NCBI GenBank assembly: GCA_021205305.1
Contig: JAJPXU010000115.1
Location: forward strand, 1 to 46,073
DNA: 46,073 nt
Direction: 5' to 3'
DNA from: Lachnospiraceae bacterium
GTDB taxonomy: Bacteria; Bacillota; Clostridia; Lachnospirales; Lachnospiraceae
The notes under the pieces were generated by a model that did no database searches, was not told the DNA's origin, and worked only from the letters and a program-made list of their open reading frames with translations. Below, in pieces: positions 278 to 45,931 of the stretch; within the stretch, counting starts at the first letter, position 1; each line of letters starts with the position of its first letter. The position numbers and the translations under genes were made by a program.

Positions 278-1390
278 ATGGACAGAACTATTCGTTACCA
301 GATTCAAAAAGAAGACGCCGGAATCCGCGTAGAACAGTTTCTCCGGCGAAGACTCTATTCCAGGCAAAACCTGGCACAGCTGAAAAAAGAGAATGCCACC
401 TGGCGAAACGGCCAGACCTGCCCTCTGATGCAAAAACTCTCCTGCGGAGACATCCTGGAAGTGCATATCCGCGAGGATTCCTGTTCAGAGAACATTCCGG
501 CTGCAGCCATCCCCCTCTCCATTGTCTACGAAGATGAGGATATCCTGGTGGTAAACAAACCGGCAGGGCTTCCCATGCATCCCTCCAGGGATAATTTCTA
601 TTATTCGCTGGCAAACGCTGTGATGTACTACTACAGAAACAGCGGCCGCTTTGTCTTTCGCTGCACCAATCGGCTTGACCGGGATACCTCCGGCCTGACT
701 GTGATTGCAAAGCATCCCGTCAGCGCAAGCGTCCTTGGTTCCATGGTGAAATCGAAGGGGGACGGATCGCAGCCGGTAATGGAGCGTGAGTACCTTGCGA
801 TCGCCTGCGGCACTGTCACACCGGCAGACGGTACCATTTGCGCTCCGCTTGCACGCAAAGAGAACGCTCTATCTGTGAATGCATTCCATCCCGTGGCAGC
901 GCCGGAACGCACCATTGAACGCTGTGTCGATTTCGAACATGGGGAGCGAGCCGTCACACACTACCGTGTCCTTGAAACAAAAAATGGGTACAGCCTCCTC
1001 TCCCTTCTTCTGGAGACAGGCCGTACCCATCAGATCCGTGTCCATATGGCATATCTGGGATATCCGCTTGCCGGAGATTACCTGTATCATCCGGCCTGCC
1101 GTGCAGCCGCCATCCGGACATACCCTGCTGCGCAGCTTCTGATTCAGGACTCACCGGAGAATGAGGTTCCCACACTGATTTCCACGCAGATTCCCTCTGT
1201 CACCGTGCCTATGGAAATCACCGGAATTTCCCGGCAGGCGCTCCATGCGTACCGTTTAACGTTTCCCCATCCCATGACGGGGAAACGTCTGGAATTCACC
1301 GCCCCGCTGCCGGAGGATATGCAAAAATTCGGATTTAGCCGTCATCTCTCCATTCCACATCAATCGGTGGAATGCTTTCCTCTCTGGTAA
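278..1390 (+). CDS. RluA-family RNA pseudouridine synthase
   Basis: Isomerises uridine to pseudouridine in rRNA or tRNA. The S4-like N-terminus (about residues 14-70) precedes the catalytic domain. That domain contains RLDRDTSG (132-139), with the family catalytic Asp at 134, and GRTHQIRVH (248-256), the second RluA signature. At 370 aa it is somewhat longer than a typical RluA/RluD; the extra residues are C-terminal, after about 290. Which RNA is modified cannot be told. No clear Shine-Dalgarno or promoter is visible before the ATG. The last 56 bp overlap the convergent GH115 gene, and two inverted repeats lie inside the coding sequence (980-1030 and 1259-1288). Confidence 0.9.
   Translation: MDRTIRYQIQKEDAGIRVEQFLRRRLYSRQNLAQLKKENATWRNGQTCPLMQKLSCGDILEVHIREDSCSENIPAAAIPLSIVYEDEDILVVNKPAGLPMHPSRDNFYYSLANAVMYYYRNSGRFVFRCTNRLDRDTSGLTVIAKHPVSASVLGSMVKSKGDGSQPVMEREYLAIACGTVTPADGTICAPLARKENALSVNAFHPVAAPERTIERCVDFEHGERAVTHYRVLETKNGYSLLSLLLETGRTHQIRVHMAYLGYPLAGDYLYHPACRAAAIRTYPAAQLLIQDSPENEVPTLISTQIPSVTVPMEITGISRQALHAYRLTFPHPMTGKRLEFTAPLPEDMQKFGFSRHLSIPHQSVECFPLW
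980..1030 (-). repeat. Terminator-like inverted repeat inside the rluA-type gene, homologous to the recJ terminator
   Basis: Inside the coding sequence, ATGGGTACAGCCT and AGGCCGTACCCAT form a stem with 12 of 13 positions matching. On the minus strand the stem is followed by six T (979-984 on the plus strand are A). The 51 bp match 22433-22483 without gaps at about 40 of 51 positions. It lies about 305 nt beyond the GH115 stop in the GH115 transcription direction, so it could end that transcript. Confidence 0.5.
1259..1288. other. Perfect 10-bp hairpin in the 3' end of the rluA-type coding region
   Basis: ACGTTTCCCC and GGGGAAACGT pair perfectly around a 10-nt loop. It lies 47 nt past the GH115 stop on the minus strand and could protect or shape that mRNA's 3' end. 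No T-run follows on either strand, so it is not a classical intrinsic terminator. Confidence 0.5.
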
Positions 1391-4300
1391 GAAAGATCCG
1401 ATCCACGCGTATCCCTGACGCGACCGCATACACGGTAAGCGTATGTTCTCCCGGTGCCAGCTCCGCATCCGCGAGGAGCATCCACACCCAGTTCTGCTTT
1501 GTCCCGTAATTAAACAGTCTGCCGTTTCCATACATCTTTTCCTGCGGTATCACCTTCCCGTCTACACCAATGGCTACTCTGGCAGAAAAATCGTCATCGT
1601 ATTTCAACAGCGTCCAGATCTGATAGCTCCCTCCCTCTGCCTGTATGCGATAGTTAAGAGATGGGGCCTGTGGAATATTTTCCCAGAAAAGCCCTTCTTC
1701 GGCAATATGCATCGCCAGCCCTGTCCTTCCATCTGTCTCTGACTGTACGTGTTCCCAGGCGATTCCTGATAAATCTACTGTCCAATATGCATCTTTGGAA
1801 TCCAGAAGAGCGCACTCACAGTCAATTCGTATCTCCCCGTTTCTTTCTGCAAAAATTCCCTGCCTCATTTTGGAAAATACATTTTTGGTGCCATCCTCCT
1901 CACAGCTATATTTTTTTACGCCCAGCGAATCCTGGTGGCGCACAGCATTTTTCAAATACAGGCGGTTGCTCGCCCAGAATGTTTTCCCGGCGTAAATGAC
2001 GTCCGGAAGCTCCGCCCGGGCACCGTCAAAGAGGTTCTGAAATAATTCTGACACAGCAGACGCATCAAAGAAAAATTCATACGGTCCATGCCCCGGCTCT
2101 CTGTTGTACTGTGCATGATAGCTCTCCTGCGGTCCGAGATTCGAAGCCACATACCCTTGTGTATAAATTACAATCTTTGAAAAGGATACATACCGGTCTA
2201 ACGCCCGTATCCGCAGCATATGTCTGCCAGCAGCAATATACGGCAGACGGAGGCATAGCTTTTCTACGTTATTCATCACGTTGTTTTTCCACCCTCCGCG
2301 CCATTCGTCCGTAGCGATTGATTCCAGAATGCCGACGCTCTTGCCATCAAGGAGCACTTCCAGGCGAATCCTTCCCGTGGAATTCAGAGATGGGAAACGA
2401 TAGAACTCCAGTAAAAATTCCCCTTCAGAGGTAAAATACAGTTCATATTCCAGCAGAACGCCCGCCTCTGCTTCCATGAGACTGCCTTCATATCTTCCCA
2501 GGTAGTCGATCCTGTGCCATCCGTCGTTTCCTGTAAAATGATCCGCAAGAATCGAAATGCAGCCCTCGCCTTCTGTATAACCACTCTCCGCATGCCAGAT
2601 TGCAGCATATTGTTTTTCCGGTATTTTCTCCTCCCGGCGAAGCACATCCTCTTTCTGAATCACCAGCGCCGGCTTGCACGCCGGATAAAGGGCAGTACAG
2701 GGCGGTCGGAATTCCTCCGGAGTCAGGATTCTGTCCCATTTTCCGCCGCACATTTTCTTATTATAGTAATACAGCAGATCCCGCTTCCGGTCATCTGCTT
2801 CCCTGGAGAGCGCTGTGCAGGTGTCAGCGTCCACCATACGTCCCTGGCTATACATCAGAGCGCTTCTATCCGCATAATAAAAGGAAACATTAATCAGGTA
2901 TCCGGCATAAATTTTTAAAGCAAACATCTGCAAAAATGCGTCTTTTTCTTCTTCCGGGAGCAACTGGTGAATCTTCACAGTACGATCGAAAAGGTTCTCA
3001 TACCGAAGCATGCGCCGAGCCGCTTCATTCCCATACGCTGTCTGGGAAAAGACGTTCGCTTTCATGTGTTCGACCTTCCGCACATTGGTAATCTGCGTAA
3101 AATCGCGGTAGATTGCCGCTGCTTCTTTTCCATGACTGCCTGTAAAATTCTGATTGATCCAGCTTTCTGTAAAGGCACAGACATCCCCCGTTGTCGGTTC
3201 CTCTCTTCCGATTTCCCATGCGTAGCGCAGAAAAAAGGTAATGTCCTGCTCCAGAGGCTTGATGGCTCCGACATTCAATACCCAGAGCTTTCGGATCCCG
3301 TTTTCGTACGATTTTCGCAGTTCATTTTTCATATGAGCGAGCGGCGTGGAATTAAAAAACAGGTAGCTCATACCCGGATGCGCCCAATAGGAAGCGTGAT
3401 AGTACAAGCCGTGTCCTCCCGCGCGCATCTGTTCTTTTTCATTCGGATAGCGGCGCATATAGCCGAAATTATCATTCGCCCAGATCAGAGTAATATCCTC
3501 CGGCAGATTCAGCCCCGCGTCATACAGGGACAAAACCTCCTTATAAGGCACGAAAGTCTGGAAAGTATGTGCATTCCCTGTCACTTTTTTCAGGATTTCA
3601 CGCTGATCTGTAATTACCTTCTCCAGCAGGGCGACCTTTTGCTTCTGCTTCTCTTCCTCTGAAAGGTCATTTCTGCTGTCAATCTTTTCCGCGACAAATC
3701 CGCTGTCATGGATGCCGCGCATCCCTACAGTATAGCTCACCTCATATTCCAGATTCTGCTCGACGCTCCCTCTCCAGTAGCGCTGAATCATCTCCCGATT
3801 TCTTCCCGCGATGGAATAATCATAGGAAACATCCAGGGCGTCATTTTCCTCACACCAGGGTGTCCATTCATTCTGATTGCTCCGAAGGAGCATATCGCAG
3901 TGAGAAGTTCCCACTACCATCCCCATCTCATTCGCAAGCCGGCCATTTTCCGGATCCATATTAAAGGCGTTGACGTGCATCGCCGGCCAGATATAATTTG
4001 CTTTCAGACGCAGCAGCAGTTCAAAAACACGCGCATAGGTTTTCGGGCCGATGGTCGTTTCCTTCATATAAGTCTGGGACCAGGCTTCCAGCTCCTCCTC
4101 ATCATTGATAAAAATACCCCGATATTGCACGGAGGGCGCATCCGTCTTATGAAATCCGTTTTCCAGGAAAATACGTTCCTTTTTCTTCACCGGCACATCC
4201 GCAAACCAGTGCCAGGGAGATACGCCAATCATCTCACAGAATTCATAAATCCCATAAATCGTTCCCCGTCGATCCGCCCCGGCGATATACAGCACTCCAT

Positions 4301-4640
4301 CTGACACCAGCAGGGAAAATGCCTCCCAGATTCCGCTTCCTTTTTTATCAGTCACGTCAGAGTGATTCGGAAGCTCCGTGATTCCCAGTGTTCCTATCAC
4401 AATCTTCTCCATATGTCTGCCATTCGCGGCTGCCTCACGATCCACGGCAGCCCCACGCGTTCCGACCTCTCCGTTTTCCGCAGCATCGTCATCCTTCTCC
4501 GTCACAAGCTTTGCCCGCGCACCGCACACGCGTCCCAGATCCGCACACAGATTCTCGACAGCCTGCCGGACCGCGAAGTCCTCTTCCGAAGATAAAAATA
4601 CCCCTACTTCTTCCTTTTGATTTATAATAAACTCTTTCAT
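1335..4640 (-). CDS. Glycoside hydrolase family 115 (xylan alpha-glucuronidase type)
   Basis: GH115 enzymes release (4-O-methyl)glucuronic acid from xylan side chains. Family-typical blocks seen here include SPWHWFADVP near the end of the N-terminal domain, the HGLYYHASYWAHPGMSY and LWVLNVGAIKPLEQD segments in the catalytic barrel, and a long C-terminal beta-rich part ending in a carbohydrate-binding-like domain. The ATG at 4640 is preferred over the upstream frame start at 4694 because AAGGAG precedes it and the -10 box lies between the two. The product is 1101 aa, large but normal for the family. No signal peptide is visible, so it probably acts on imported oligosaccharides in the cytoplasm. 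The gene stands alone behind its own consensus promoter, and its end overlaps the convergent rluA-type gene by 56 bp. Confidence 0.88.
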   Translation of the reverse strand: MKEFIINQKEEVGVFLSSEEDFAVRQAVENLCADLGRVCGARAKLVTEKDDDAAENGEVGTRGAAVDREAAANGRHMEKIVIGTLGITELPNHSDVTDKKGSGIWEAFSLLVSDGVLYIAGADRRGTIYGIYEFCEMIGVSPWHWFADVPVKKKERIFLENGFHKTDAPSVQYRGIFINDEEELEAWSQTYMKETTIGPKTYARVFELLLRLKANYIWPAMHVNAFNMDPENGRLANEMGMVVGTSHCDMLLRSNQNEWTPWCEENDALDVSYDYSIAGRNREMIQRYWRGSVEQNLEYEVSYTVGMRGIHDSGFVAEKIDSRNDLSEEEKQKQKVALLEKVITDQREILKKVTGNAHTFQTFVPYKEVLSLYDAGLNLPEDITLIWANDNFGYMRRYPNEKEQMRAGGHGLYYHASYWAHPGMSYLFFNSTPLAHMKNELRKSYENGIRKLWVLNVGAIKPLEQDITFFLRYAWEIGREEPTTGDVCAFTESWINQNFTGSHGKEAAAIYRDFTQITNVRKVEHMKANVFSQTAYGNEAARRMLRYENLFDRTVKIHQLLPEEEKDAFLQMFALKIYAGYLINVSFYYADRSALMYSQGRMVDADTCTALSREADDRKRDLLYYYNKKMCGGKWDRILTPEEFRPPCTALYPACKPALVIQKEDVLRREEKIPEKQYAAIWHAESGYTEGEGCISILADHFTGNDGWHRIDYLGRYEGSLMEAEAGVLLEYELYFTSEGEFLLEFYRFPSLNSTGRIRLEVLLDGKSVGILESIATDEWRGGWKNNVMNNVEKLCLRLPYIAAGRHMLRIRALDRYVSFSKIVIYTQGYVASNLGPQESYHAQYNREPGHGPYEFFFDASAVSELFQNLFDGARAELPDVIYAGKTFWASNRLYLKNAVRHQDSLGVKKYSCEEDGTKNVFSKMRQGIFAERNGEIRIDCECALLDSKDAYWTVDLSGIAWEHVQSETDGRTGLAMHIAEEGLFWENIPQAPSLNYRIQAEGGSYQIWTLLKYDDDFSARVAIGVDGKVIPQEKMYGNGRLFNYGTKQNWVWMLLADAELAPGEHTLTVYAVASGIRVDRIFLTREESIPPIDVEWRDDG

Positions 4641-4692
4641 AAATGCAACTGCTCCTTTTCCCCCACGGTATCTTACGCACCCCTGTCTGTGC

Positions 4693-4721
4693 ATTATATT
4701 AAATCACGTCCGTCGTGTCAA
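4693..4721 (-). promoter_or_regulatory. Consensus promoter of the GH115 gene
   Basis: On the minus strand TTGACA (4721-4716) and TATAAT (4698-4693) are separated by exactly 17 nt, a perfect housekeeping sigma match. Predicted transcription starts near 4686, giving a leader of about 45 nt before the ATG at 4640. Confidence 0.85.
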
Positions 4722-4792: not shown

Positions 4793-4853
4793 ACCAACAA
4801 TCCATTCAAAACATTTTTGTAACAGTTCAGAACAGCATCAAAATGAAAAGACA

Positions 4854-4906
4854 GGTGCTGAGCGCCAGTGGCGCTCGTTTAGCACCGACCGGAGCGAAGC
4901 GTAGAT
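4854..4906 (+). repeat. R1 module M, first unit
   Basis: A 53-bp unit homologous to 5014-5068 and absent from R1 copies 2 and 3. GGTGCT pairs with AGCACC around an inner GAGCGCC-AGT-GGCGCTC hairpin, followed by the shared tail CGACCGGAGCGAAGCGTAGA. Stem differences from the second unit are compensated on the opposite arm. Confidence 0.8.
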
Positions 4907-5013
4907 GTGCAGATTTATCTGCTAAAGGCTGTATTTTCATTTTGGGATGGGCGAAACGCCCATCAAGCCACAGATATATGACGCGTAAGCGGCATATAGC
5001 CTGCATAGCAGGC

Positions 5014-5068
5014 GGCGCTGAACGTCCAGTGGACGTTCGCCAAGCGCCGACCGAAGCGAAGCGTAGAC
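5014..5068 (+). repeat. R1 module M, second unit
   Basis: A 55-bp unit homologous to 4854-4906. GGCGCT pairs with AGCGCC around GAACGTCC-AGT-GGACGTTC, then the tail CGACCGAAGCGAAGCGTAGA follows. Relative to the first unit, T-A became C-G in the outer stem, G-C became A-T in the inner stem, and one extra base pair was gained. Confidence 0.8.
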
Positions 5069-5106
5069 CTGCGGCCTGCTGTTCTGAATAGTTACACATT
5101 CTCTTC

Positions 5107-18217: not shown

Positions 18218-19222
18218 TTACCAGTCTTTCTTTCTCAGGGTCGTCGGATCAAAATGATCCGTATCCGGCGTGCAGGTCCGCGCCATCACACAGGACAGTT
18301 CTGCCGTCAGTTCCCGAAGCCGACGCTCTACTCCCGCTGCGCCCTCTGTCATATACGGTTTCACCAGATTTCTCGCCACGCACACCCGGTCCGCACCAAG
18401 CGCCAGTGCCTTGTAAGCATCAATTCCGCTTGTAATCCCACAGTCAACAAAAATTTTCACCCGGTCTCCCACCGCTCTTTTGATCTCCGGCAGGACATAC
18501 AGCGGCGGCACCGCATCCGGGATTTCCCCTTTATGATGGGAGAGCAGAATGGCTGCCACGCCCGCGTCCGCGCATTTTACCGCATCCTGTACTGACAAAA
18601 CCCCTTTGGCGATAAACGGCAGCTTCGTGGACTTCACATACATCGCAATCTCCTCGGTCGTCTTCGGACAAAGCTGGCCATAATCCGGTGTCGGATGATA
18701 GAGTGTACCATCCGGCGCGATGCCATGGTCAATATCCATCGCCACGGCAAAGCATCCACATTCCTCGTCATGACGAATTTCTGAGAGAACCGCCTCATTG
18801 TCGCGCTGCATTTTCACAATACGGATGCACTGCGCCCCAGTCGCCACCAGCTCATCCACCTCCTGATTGGAAATATAGCCAAACAGTGCAGGCGTGTTCA
18901 TGGCAAGTGCCCCTTTTGTAATCTCCGTCATGCCATTTTTGTGCAGTAATGGTGCAATCGCAGATAATCCGCCTACCATGATGGGCGTATCGAATGTCTT
19001 TCCCCACAGGCTGGCATGCGTATCCGCCACCCAGGAATCCAGGTAGCGGTATTCAATCATGTAGCTGTCGTAGCACGCTCTGGTGATTTTATTTGAGTCA
19101 TCGTTCTCAGATTTCAGGGAATACGGCGTGTAGCCAAATTGCAGCCCGTCCGCCCGTCTGGGGCTGTCCGGGCCGCCAAAATACCGATCCTCACTGTAAT
19201 CCGCTGGTTTTGGTTCCTGCAT
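18218..19222 (-). CDS. FMN-dependent alpha-hydroxy-acid dehydrogenase-like protein with altered active site
   Basis: TIM-barrel FMN protein of 334 aa related to lactate/glycolate oxidases. The FMN-contacting blocks are present: PIMVGGLSAIA, FIAKGVLSVQDA with the FMN Lys at 206, IFVDCGITSG and ADRVCVARNL. The active-site segment SNHGGR of the family reads SHHKGE (228-233). The catalytic base His is kept, but the Arg that anchors the substrate carboxylate is Glu, so the substrate probably is not a simple 2-hydroxy acid. The start is the ATG at 19222, 9 nt after AGGAGG; that AGGAGG lies inside the slightly longer open frame from 19240. Repeat R1 copy 2 forms its leader. Confidence 0.85.
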   Translation of the reverse strand: MQEPKPADYSEDRYFGGPDSPRRADGLQFGYTPYSLKSENDDSNKITRACYDSYMIEYRYLDSWVADTHASLWGKTFDTPIMVGGLSAIAPLLHKNGMTEITKGALAMNTPALFGYISNQEVDELVATGAQCIRIVKMQRDNEAVLSEIRHDEECGCFAVAMDIDHGIAPDGTLYHPTPDYGQLCPKTTEEIAMYVKSTKLPFIAKGVLSVQDAVKCADAGVAAILLSHHKGEIPDAVPPLYVLPEIKRAVGDRVKIFVDCGITSGIDAYKALALGADRVCVARNLVKPYMTEGAAGVERRLRELTAELSCVMARTCTPDTDHFDPTTLRKKDW

Positions 19223-19247
19223 ATAGTATTTCCTCCTCATTTATCAT

Positions 19248-19424
19248 GTTATCTATTTGAACAGCAGGCCGCAGACCGCCTGCGTTGCAGGCTATATGCC
19301 GCTAACGCGTCATATGTCTGTGGCTTGATGGGCGAAACGCCCATCCCGAAAGGAAAATACAGCCTTTAGCAGGTGAACCTGCACAGACTGTCTTTTCCTT
19401 TCGATGCTGTTCTTTACTGTTAAC
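19248..19424 (-). repeat. Structured repeat R1, copy 2 (short form, reversed)
   Basis: A 177-bp copy of R1 on the minus strand, lacking both M modules. Its stems are CGAAAGGAAAA with TTTTCCTTTCG, GCAGG with CCTGC, GATGGGCG with CGCCCATC, ATATGACGC with GCGGCATAT and CCTGC with GCAGG, bounded by GAACAGCA/TGCTGTTC. Differences from copy 1 in the long stem fall in pairs that preserve pairing. It fills the space between the FMN-enzyme ribosome binding site and a minus-strand TATAAT at 19431-19426, so it is probably transcribed as that gene's 5' leader. Confidence 0.85.
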
Positions 19425-43849: not shown

Positions 43850-44860
43850 TTAATTGTTTTCTCCAAGATTTTCTTTAATGATCTCGTTGATTTTCTGTTT
43901 TTTAAATAATTCACACTGATAAATGGAGGTCGTTACCTCCTGTGCCTTTGAGCTGCCATGTGTCTTCACAACCAGCCCCTTCAGTCCGAGCAGCGGTGCG
44001 CCGCCGTACTGGCTGCCGTCGAAAGCTTTCAACGTCTCTTTCAGGGAAGAATGAATCAGCGCCGCGCCAATCTTTGTCTTCGTATTCTTCATCAGAGCGC
44101 CCTTCACCATATGAATCAGAGTAGAACCAACGCCCTCATAAAGCTTCAATATCACATTGCCGACAAATGCTTCACAGACAATGACATCGCAAACGCCCGC
44201 CGGGATATCTCTCGCCTCGACACTGCCAATAAAATTGATATCTGTACAGGCTTTCAGGAGCGGAAATGTCTCCTTTACAAGGGCATTGCCCTTTTCCTCC
44301 TCTGCACCGATATTCACAATTCCCACACGCGGATTCTTTACTCCAAGCACCTTTTCCATGTAGATCGAGCCCATTCTCGCAAACTGCACAAGATGCGGTG
44401 CTCTCGCATCCACATTCGCGCCACAGTCGATCAGCAGAGACATACCCTTTTCCGTCGGAATGACTGGTGCCAGAGCAGGCCGTTCAACCCCCCGAATTCT
44501 TCCGACAATCGCCTGGCCGCCGACCAGGACGGCTCCGGAATTGCCAGCGGAGACAATGGCGTCCGCCTCGCCTCGCTTTACCATCTGCATCCCGACAACC
44601 AGAGAAGAATCCTTCTTGGACCGTATCGCATTCACCGGAGGCTCGGCTGTCTCAATCACGTCCTCACAATGGACGATCTCTACCCGATCCTTCGGATAAG
44701 TATATTTCGAAAGTTCTCCCTCGATCGCTTCCTTGCGCCCGGTCAAAATCACATGGATACTCTCGCGGCCATTCACTGCGTCCACAGCACCCTTCACCAG
44801 CTCGCCCGGTGCGTTATCCCCGCCCATGGCGTCGACCACAACGCGGATCATTTCACTCAT
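43850..44860 (-). CDS. plsX: Phosphate acyltransferase PlsX
   Basis: Makes acyl-phosphate from acyl-ACP for phospholipid synthesis, 336 aa. It starts [20 protein letters not shown], the PlsX hallmark, and later has [11 protein letters not shown] and GFVGNV-like ([10 protein letters not shown]) blocks. The ATG at 44860 has GGAGG; the frame extends 14 codons upstream. It has its own promoter (44959-44987), with repeat R1 copy 3 just beyond. Confidence 0.97.
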
Positions 44861-44958
44861 AATTTCCGCCTCCATTGTCCTGCGCAAAACCCTTCTGGAC
44901 AAAGAACTACATTCCAGTGGCTTTACTCCGGCGATCTGTTATCGCGTAACTGCTATAC

Positions 44959-45000: not shown

Positions 45001-45176
45001 GTAAAAGTTCAGAACAGCATCGAAATGAAAAAACAGGCTTTGCAGGTTTACCTGCTAAAGACTGCATTTTCATTTCGGGATGGGCGGAACGCCCATCAAG
45101 CCTCAGACATATGACGCGCAAGCGGCATATAGCCTTCAAAGAAGGCGGTCTGTGGCCTGCAGTTCTGAATAATTAC
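45001..45176 (+). repeat. Structured repeat R1, copy 3 (short form)
   Basis: A 176-bp copy without M modules. TTCAGAAC/GTTCTGAA end repeats enclose CGAAATGAAAA/TTTTCATTTCG, GCAGG/CCTGC, GATGGGCG/CGCCCATC, ATATGACGC/GCGGCATAT (same A-G mismatch) and CCTTC/GAAGG. The last stem is CCTGC/GCAGG in the other two copies, a compensated change. It sits between the rpmF terminator and the plsX promoter. Confidence 0.85.
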
Positions 45177-45439: not shown

Positions 45440-45931
45440 TCACACCTCCTTATAATTACTGAAAATATCAAGGACTTTTGCCATTCTTGGATCAAGGCTG
45501 CCTTTCTGGCATGAGCATTCGCCTTTGTTCAGGTTCTGCCCACATGTCACGCATAACCCTCTGCAATCGCTGCGGCAGAGCACACGCTCCGGCCATACAA
45601 GCAATGCCTCATCATGGATTAGCTGATCCACATCCAGGTAATATCCATCAATATAATCATTCTCTTTTAAATCAAGCTCCAGCTCAGGCTGAATGTTCAG
45701 TCTGCGGCTGACACTCTCCAGACAGCGCGCACAGGGAAATTCCACTTCCAGCTCTATCTCACCGCAAACGAAAAGCTTCTGATCGCCTTTGTTCTCAATC
45801 CGCAGGGTACCGGTCTGTTTGTCCAGTATCCGGAACTCGCCAAAGCGATAAGAGAGAACGGAAAGCTCCGGGAGAATCTCATAGGATACTGTTTTTCCTT
45901 CATTTAATATCACATCAGTTAAATCAAGCAA
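45440..45931 (-). CDS. yceD: YceD family (DUF177) 23S rRNA accumulation protein
   Basis: A 163-aa protein needed for normal 23S rRNA levels in relatives and always found before rpmF. The central CARCLESV and C-terminal CRGLCVTCGQNLNKGEC supply cysteines that may bind zinc. It starts with TTG at 45931, with GGGGTGA about 7 nt upstream; there is no better in-frame ATG. It is driven by a perfect promoter. Confidence 0.92.
   Translation of the reverse strand: MLDLTDVILNEGKTVSYEILPELSVLSYRFGEFRILDKQTGTLRIENKGDQKLFVCGEIELEVEFPCARCLESVSRRLNIQPELELDLKENDYIDGYYLDVDQLIHDEALLVWPERVLCRSDCRGLCVTCGQNLNKGECSCQKGSLDPRMAKVLDIFSNYKEV

Follow-up and report, generated by a model that had tools for sequence, protein, structure and literature searches.

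The window, by which we mean the whole stretch of 46,073 nucleotides that was analysed, contains three copies of a repeat that we call R1. Copy 1 (4819..5095, + strand, 277 bp) is a MITE made of a core fold and of two hairpin modules, one at site A (4855..4905, + strand, 51 bp) and one at site C (5016..5067, + strand, 52 bp as drawn, with boundaries accurate to 1-2 bp). Copy 2 (19248..19423, - strand) and copy 3 (45001..45176, + strand) are both 176 bp long and devoid of modules, and the ends of copy 2 are worn; copy 1 is longer than the two others only because the two modules were inserted. The terminal inverted repeats of copy 1 lie at 4819..4836 (+ strand, GTAACAGTTCAGAACAGC) and at 5078..5095 (- strand, reading GCTGTTCTGAATAGTTAC on the + strand), and they are flanked by target-site repeats at 4811..4818 (ACATTTTT) and at 5096..5103 (ACATTCTC, which is ACATTTTC in genome G416) matching each other at 6/8 bases. 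The flanking repeat is weak at copy 3 (5/8) and absent at copy 2 (1/8). Copy 2 is located directly upstream of a gene for an FMN-dependent dehydrogenase (mechanical open reading frame 18218-19240, - strand), copy 3 between a gene of the Pfam family FA_synthesis (43850-44902, - strand) and a YceD gene (45440-45931, - strand), and a glycosyl hydrolase family 115 gene (1335-4694) adjoins copy 1. The first-pass annotation had described three such copies with compensated stems; the copies and all the stems that it quoted are present in the sequence, and its limits were correct within a few bases. When the copies are aligned, the long stem reads CAAAATG/CATTTTG, CGAAAGG/CCTTTCG and CGAAATG/CATTTCG in the respective copies, while two other stems read GCAGA/TCTGC versus GCAGG/CCTGC, and CCTGC/GCAGG versus CCTTC/GAAGG.

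A covariance-model search of Lachnospiraceae genomes, which had been proposed along with that description, shows that R1 is a large repeat family. In the genome to which the window belongs, a DNA search gave 72 matches, many of which are pieces of one element, and a first covariance model, made of 13 copies without modules, gave 70 matches at E <= 0.001, 18 of them being, by our own count, antisense echoes of model positions 21-77. This first model matched 26 of 397 genomes of the family at E <= 1e-5, the window's own genome included; this search scored the best six candidates per genome, so that copy numbers there are lower bounds. The second model was made of 30 copies, 6 of which come from the window's own genome, and matched 18 of 391 genomes of the class at E <= 1e-6, again including that genome. 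Eight of these 18 genomes lie outside the family, in five other families. The weakest class-level match (L334) is doubtful by eye; judged by eye, L320 and L335, both in G027 and thus in another genus, show what look like perfect ends, together with the 8-bp repeats ATCAAATT and AATAAATT. At least 107 pattern matches came with record titles: among the matches listed, all are Lachnospiraceae or Clostridiales metagenome assemblies. As for the literature, no title among the matches listed describes the R1 repeat or the module. Contigs C13, C49, C99, C146 and C169 of G000 start inside R1 copies. This means that the repeat breaks the assembly, and copies may therefore be under-counted.

The fold of R1 consists of a closing stem formed by both ends of the repeat, a long hairpin whose apex is a conserved GUGC-stem-UUUA-stem-GCUAA unit, a short GGGCG hairpin and a three-way branch. 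For each of the three copies of the window, none of 200 dinucleotide shuffles reaches as good a folding energy as the authentic sequence (z -8.65, -9.50 and -10.52). With no more than three copies, selection and chance could not be told apart, and the evidence comes from two other sets. In the set of 30 copies, double-sided changes are found in 66/66 pairs (37.3 on shuffling), 91.8% of the cells are paired (67.0% when shuffled), and the covariation score is 0.512, against 0.138 when shuffled and 0.059-0.085 when the partner is slid by 1-3 columns; the alignment is biased in favour of the R1 structure, to which it was fitted, and relatedness is not taken into account by the shuffles, yet the difference remains large. 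This set has no antisense row, and an earlier set of 35 rows, five of them antisense, gave the same picture. The second set is made of the 44 distinct sequences found among the 52 copies of 176 bp. Here 9 interior pairs are changed on both sides (2.4 when shuffled), in 33 cells (6.7 when shuffled), and the mean minor-allele frequency at interior positions is 0.0195 for paired against 0.109 for unpaired nucleotides, that is 5.6-fold less. Across these 44 copies, the apical hairpin keeps its unpaired residues (UUUA, UAA) with little or no variation. Hence, the fold of R1 is under constraint, and selection on a folded single strand, which the first-pass annotation held to be the simplest reading, is borne out both by the 44 near-identical copies and by the 30-copy set, which extends across genera. 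The same annotation noted an A-G mismatch kept in one arm, with a loop that varies. The mismatch (A114-G125, in alignment columns) is indeed present in 44/44 of the distinct 176-bp copies, whose loops differ at this place, but the arm that holds it is the least conserved helix in other genera, with 80.7% of its cells paired in the 30-copy set. The copy at L079 folds differently from the other R1 copies.

Compensatory changes could also arise without any selection on a folded molecule if template switching between the arms of a hairpin copied mutations from one arm to the other. Such a homogenisation of arms would agree with the fact that in the diverged set one-sided changes are far fewer than double ones, that they are also the minority in the near-identical set (22 G-U cells versus 35 double changes), and that some double changes stand on nearly identical backgrounds. 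However, it should neither leave unpaired positions 5.6 times more variable than paired ones nor preserve the A114-G125 mismatch and the unpaired motifs, and the pairing of R1 includes nested and far-apart arms such as those of the closing stem. We consider this explanation as quite improbable, and selection on the fold remains our reading.

R1 copies are also non-autonomous transposons (MITEs). They have terminal inverted repeats of 18 bp and, with a length of 156-328 bp in the 86 elements that we could delimit, they are too short for a transposase. An exact flanking repeat of 8 bp is found in 21 of these 86 elements, and no element has a longer one; the flanks match at 6/8 bases or better in 45/86 elements, whereas re-pairing of left and right flanks would give 6.4, each genome's version of an orthologous site being counted separately. 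The 21 exact repeats are A+T-rich, T being the commonest nucleotide at positions 3-8 in the orientation of the element. This 8-bp duplication led us to reject the idea that R1 is a REP/RAYT palindrome, as those are not known to make target duplications. The search for empty sites, another check suggested with the first description, yielded four element sites which are empty in relatives (five pairwise comparisons). At the site of copy 1, the element is present in G416 and the site is empty in G410 and G414; the three other sites hold a single 8 bp where the element is missing (L193 versus L223, L223 versus L193, L209 versus L205; TTTATTTT, AAATTCGA and CAGAATTG). We left out of the empty and module sites the self-matches L140 and L029 and the pairs L155/L183, L183/L318, L181/L162 and L205 versus L209. 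A pattern describing the ends, with at most 2 mismatches, has 149 occurrences against 2 for its reversed control. Shorter derivatives bearing these ends occur frequently: at several sites the element measures only about 36-115 bp, and a 52-bp remnant in L049 has retained 7/8 target bases (by eye). The description of R1 as a dispersed structured repeat was thus right as to the repeat and its compensatory changes but incomplete, since R1 is a MITE derived from an insertion sequence as well.

The ends and the 8-bp duplication of R1 fit the ISBst12 group of the IS66 family. For ISDge4, a member of this group which has been seen to transpose, PMC12898284 gives an 8-bp repeat, with GTGACTACTCAGCA and GTAACTGCTCAGCA as the ends, and 8-bp repeats are given too for two Paracoccus IS66 elements in PMC3281130. 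The ends of R1 resemble those of ISDge4 by eye (GTAACAGTTCAG versus GTAACTGCTCAG): both kinds of elements share the form GTAAC-N-R-YTCAG (by eye), two ends that are slightly unlike and the target duplication of 8 bp, whereas R1 has no transposase gene and has a conserved branched fold. L091 and L092, which come from other genomes of the family, each hold an IS66 element whose transposase frame is open and which has GTAA ends and an exact 8-bp repeat. In L107, a decayed IS66 gene (Pfam IS66 and IS66_C) is followed by the end GTAACAATTCAGCC, and in L242 of G409 an IS66 fragment (27.9 bits for a cut-off of 23.1) is followed by 17 bp, GTTACTATTCACAGTCC, identical to the left end of the R1-type MITE L081 of G067, another genus. 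L112 was dropped as an IS66 end because its short open reading frame matched no Pfam family. L110, of the single-ORF IS66 type, has identical 22-bp ends but of another sequence, and no target repeat by eye; it served only as a search query. The window's own genome, which is 90.9% complete, has no IS66 gene at E <= 0.001 and no match to the transposases of L110 and L099, which are of the single-ORF IS66 type. Our searches found no intact insertion sequence with the ends of R1, matching ends being found only on decayed IS66 copies in related genomes. As G000 has no IS66-type transposase with matching ends, we filed R1 as a MITE working like an IS66 derivative and not as a proven one. No MITE of the ISBst12 group was found among the literature matches listed. 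A match to the ends of a known insertion sequence had been counted in advance against selection on the fold. Ends of the IS66/ISBst12 kind are there, but they leave the covariation intact, which means that the MITE and the constrained fold both hold.

The fold can be selected as an RNA or as single-stranded DNA, and we favour weakly the former. With one copy taken per genome, folding favours the + strand over its complement in 22 of 26 genomes, by 4.8 kcal/mol on average; an earlier run on 24 genomes gave 21/24 without L079 and L084, the addition of which brings one genome for and one against. This asymmetry may come from one shared ancestor. The conserved unpaired residues, together with weak matches of the Clostridiales-1 RNA to R1-type elements, were counted weakly towards RNA. 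G-U pairs are 54 out of 1549 (3.5%) on the + strand versus 40 on the other, a difference which was not significant in the 24-genome run. Their rarity is unusual for an RNA, and the totals do not decide between RNA and DNA. There is no bias in the strand of 72 elements relative to the neighbouring genes (+/+ 24, -/- 24, -/+ 14, +/- 10), as judged from naive gene calls, after exclusion of the 14 of the 86 elements without a neighbour; 8/86 elements overlap a long mechanical open reading frame. Within the three copies of the window there is no promoter- or terminator-like match, and a promoter-like match on the + strand stops 17 bp short of copy 3 (one observed, 0.3 expected by chance). The same MITE could have its fold selected as single-stranded DNA or as a cruciform, the hairpins formed during replication or transposition being bound by a host or transposition protein, with no need for an RNA. 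The scarcity of G-U pairs, nearly all changes being of the Watson-Crick type on both sides, the nearly equal folding of both strands and the lack of strand bias and of promoter-like matches all speak in favour of this possibility. Against it stand the better folding of the + strand in 22/26 genomes and an unpaired, strand-specific motif which R1 has in common with Clostridiales-1, itself a proposed RNA. Moreover, IS66-type elements are DDE transposons, which move as double strands, so that a need for hairpins is not expected. On balance, we hold selection as DNA to be unlikely and continue to lean towards RNA.

No Rfam family reaches its gathering score in the window, in agreement with the initial remark that the repeat was not recognised as a named family; copy 3 has weak Rfam matches, which are hairpin matches to models of microRNAs and the like and score far under the cut-offs of these models. 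One of the closest known structures is the Clostridiales-1 RNA (RF01699), which appears in the motif table of PMC2864571, where the passage available gives no function. It resembles R1 in its branched fold of about 170 nt and in its long hairpin with a GUGC-stem-UUxC-stem-GCUAA apex, and it differs in having, in three copies and by eye, repeats of 5-6 bp beside TGAT ends, where R1 has 8-bp repeats beside GTAAC ends. One may wonder whether R1 is simply a diverged Clostridiales-1 RNA. Two R1-type elements of contig C31 in the window's own genome obtain 31.5 and 26.9 bits with the RF01699 model, the MITE L081 obtains 30.0 bits, and the apical hairpin, the size and the layout are similar by eye. 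But the best of these scores is below the gathering score of 48, RF01699 does not match copy 3 even up to E 10, and none of its 13 matches across the genome at E <= 0.01 falls on the contig of the window. Conversely, the R1 family model gives 15.6-22.7 bits on four Clostridiales-1 copies, whereas an unrelated palindrome gets 21.6. Identity of the two is thus in our opinion distinctly unlikely, and a distant kinship is plausible, not proven. Should this kinship hold, some catalogued RNAs without known function may be mobile elements. The window's own genome has six Clostridiales-1 copies above the gathering score. By eye, the copies L308, L310 and L313 look flanked by direct repeats of 5-6 bp beside TGAT ends, as if this Rfam family were mobile too. 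In L062 of G051 (1373-1506), a Clostridiales-1-like match (44.7 bits, just under gathering) adjoins an R1-type element, and another palindromic element (L306:2548-2673), with ends GAAACAGTGCAAAAC, scored like a weak R1 match.

The lengths of the R1 elements cluster at 176, 227, 277 and 328 bp (52, 12, 4 and 4 of 86). These clusters correspond to the core with 0 to 3 modules of about 51 bp. Among the loci collected for this count there are 67 distinct contexts of the module, of which 13, 27 and 17 were assigned to three sites of R1 and 10 to none of them. Individual elements have gained or lost modules in place: G416 has an orthologue of copy 1 which shares its private variants but has neither module, and L142 carries a single module, its orthologue L121 none. 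The module of site A is also found solo elsewhere. In the window's own genome, there are 85 module-like sites at no more than 1 mismatch, 61 of them exact, against 6 for the reversed control, and among 20 module-like places picked away from matches of the R1 model, 16 are, in our own reading, outside any R1 remnant, one of which (L289) does not have the usual hairpin. One of these places lies in a Clostridiales-1 RNA (L292/L310, G000:C51:32274-32498) of 73.7 bits (gathering 48) and 225 nt, four other long Clostridiales-1 copies of the genome being 158-174 nt long. There the module seems to lie on one side of a stem, so that the word "loop" is not exact in every case. Two other places are in GA-cis-like RNAs just under gathering (32.5 and 31.2 versus 34.7 bits). 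Among 70 distinct modules (117 sites were examined, of which 2 too near an end and 2 without stem were dropped), we found 13 different inner stems, and the loop is AGT in 67. As a stem of at least 5 pairs was a condition of the count, it is the diversity of the stems, and not the pairing, that is the evidence.

The whole explanation that we propose, and which we regard as moderately probable, is as follows. R1 inserts as a unit with ends of 18 bp and a target duplication of 8 bp, into sites that are empty in relatives, and it would be moved in trans by a transposase from the ISBst12 group (IS66 family). Between the ends, a branched fold is conserved, its pairing kept by compensatory changes and its stems varying less than its loops. 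This fold would be selected in a single-stranded form, more likely RNA, and might make the insertion tolerable when transcribed or act as a small RNA possibly related to Clostridiales-1. The modules of about 51 bp, which are gained or lost in place, would persist at three unpaired points because the host fold stays intact there. MITEs are normally held to keep little but their ends. In R1, compensatory change has preserved the shape of the interior in different genera and as far as other families of the class, and this selfish element thus seems to depend on a folded strand, which makes R1 a testable case for what folds do in such elements. ERIC, BOX and NEMIS are, like bcr1, dispersed structured repeats, and we know of no nested module in bcr-like repeats. 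The bcr1 and other Bacillus structured repeats resemble R1, in the passages cited, by being dispersed, by their mobile features and by their conserved structure (PMC6542083, PMC2267715). They differ from it in being tied to a TTTAT motif and to one species group.

R1 itself belongs to a known kind, and the module is the most novel part and the most worth following. It is a second element, probably mobile, nested in R1; neither a target repeat nor an enzyme was found for it. We put forward more tentatively, as a possibility that we would rate at somewhat less than even, that the 51-bp module is an independently mobile mini-element which enters structured nucleic acids, at three fixed points in the case of R1, and leaves their fold unbroken; in bacteria it would be the counterpart of the double-hairpin elements known from fungal mitochondria. 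These are, in the part of PMC2800124 on which we draw, small mobile hairpins in structured RNAs that stay in the transcripts, a likeness which concerns the module only. The module differs from them in being bacterial, in its sequence, which is unrelated as far as seen, and in its hosts, namely a MITE, a Clostridiales-1 RNA and GA-cis-like RNAs. If the proposal is true, the insertion sites of the module would mark which single strands must keep their fold. The nested modules can be seen as natural insertion experiments, in which the tolerated sites show where the host fold is flexible. The module is also present in two unnamed groups of structured repeats of one genome (L291, L293, L299 and L303 for the one, L286 and L290 for the other), and L316 (G000:C125:2048-2178) seems to be a chimera, in which pieces of the module are joined to the 3' part of Clostridiales-1.
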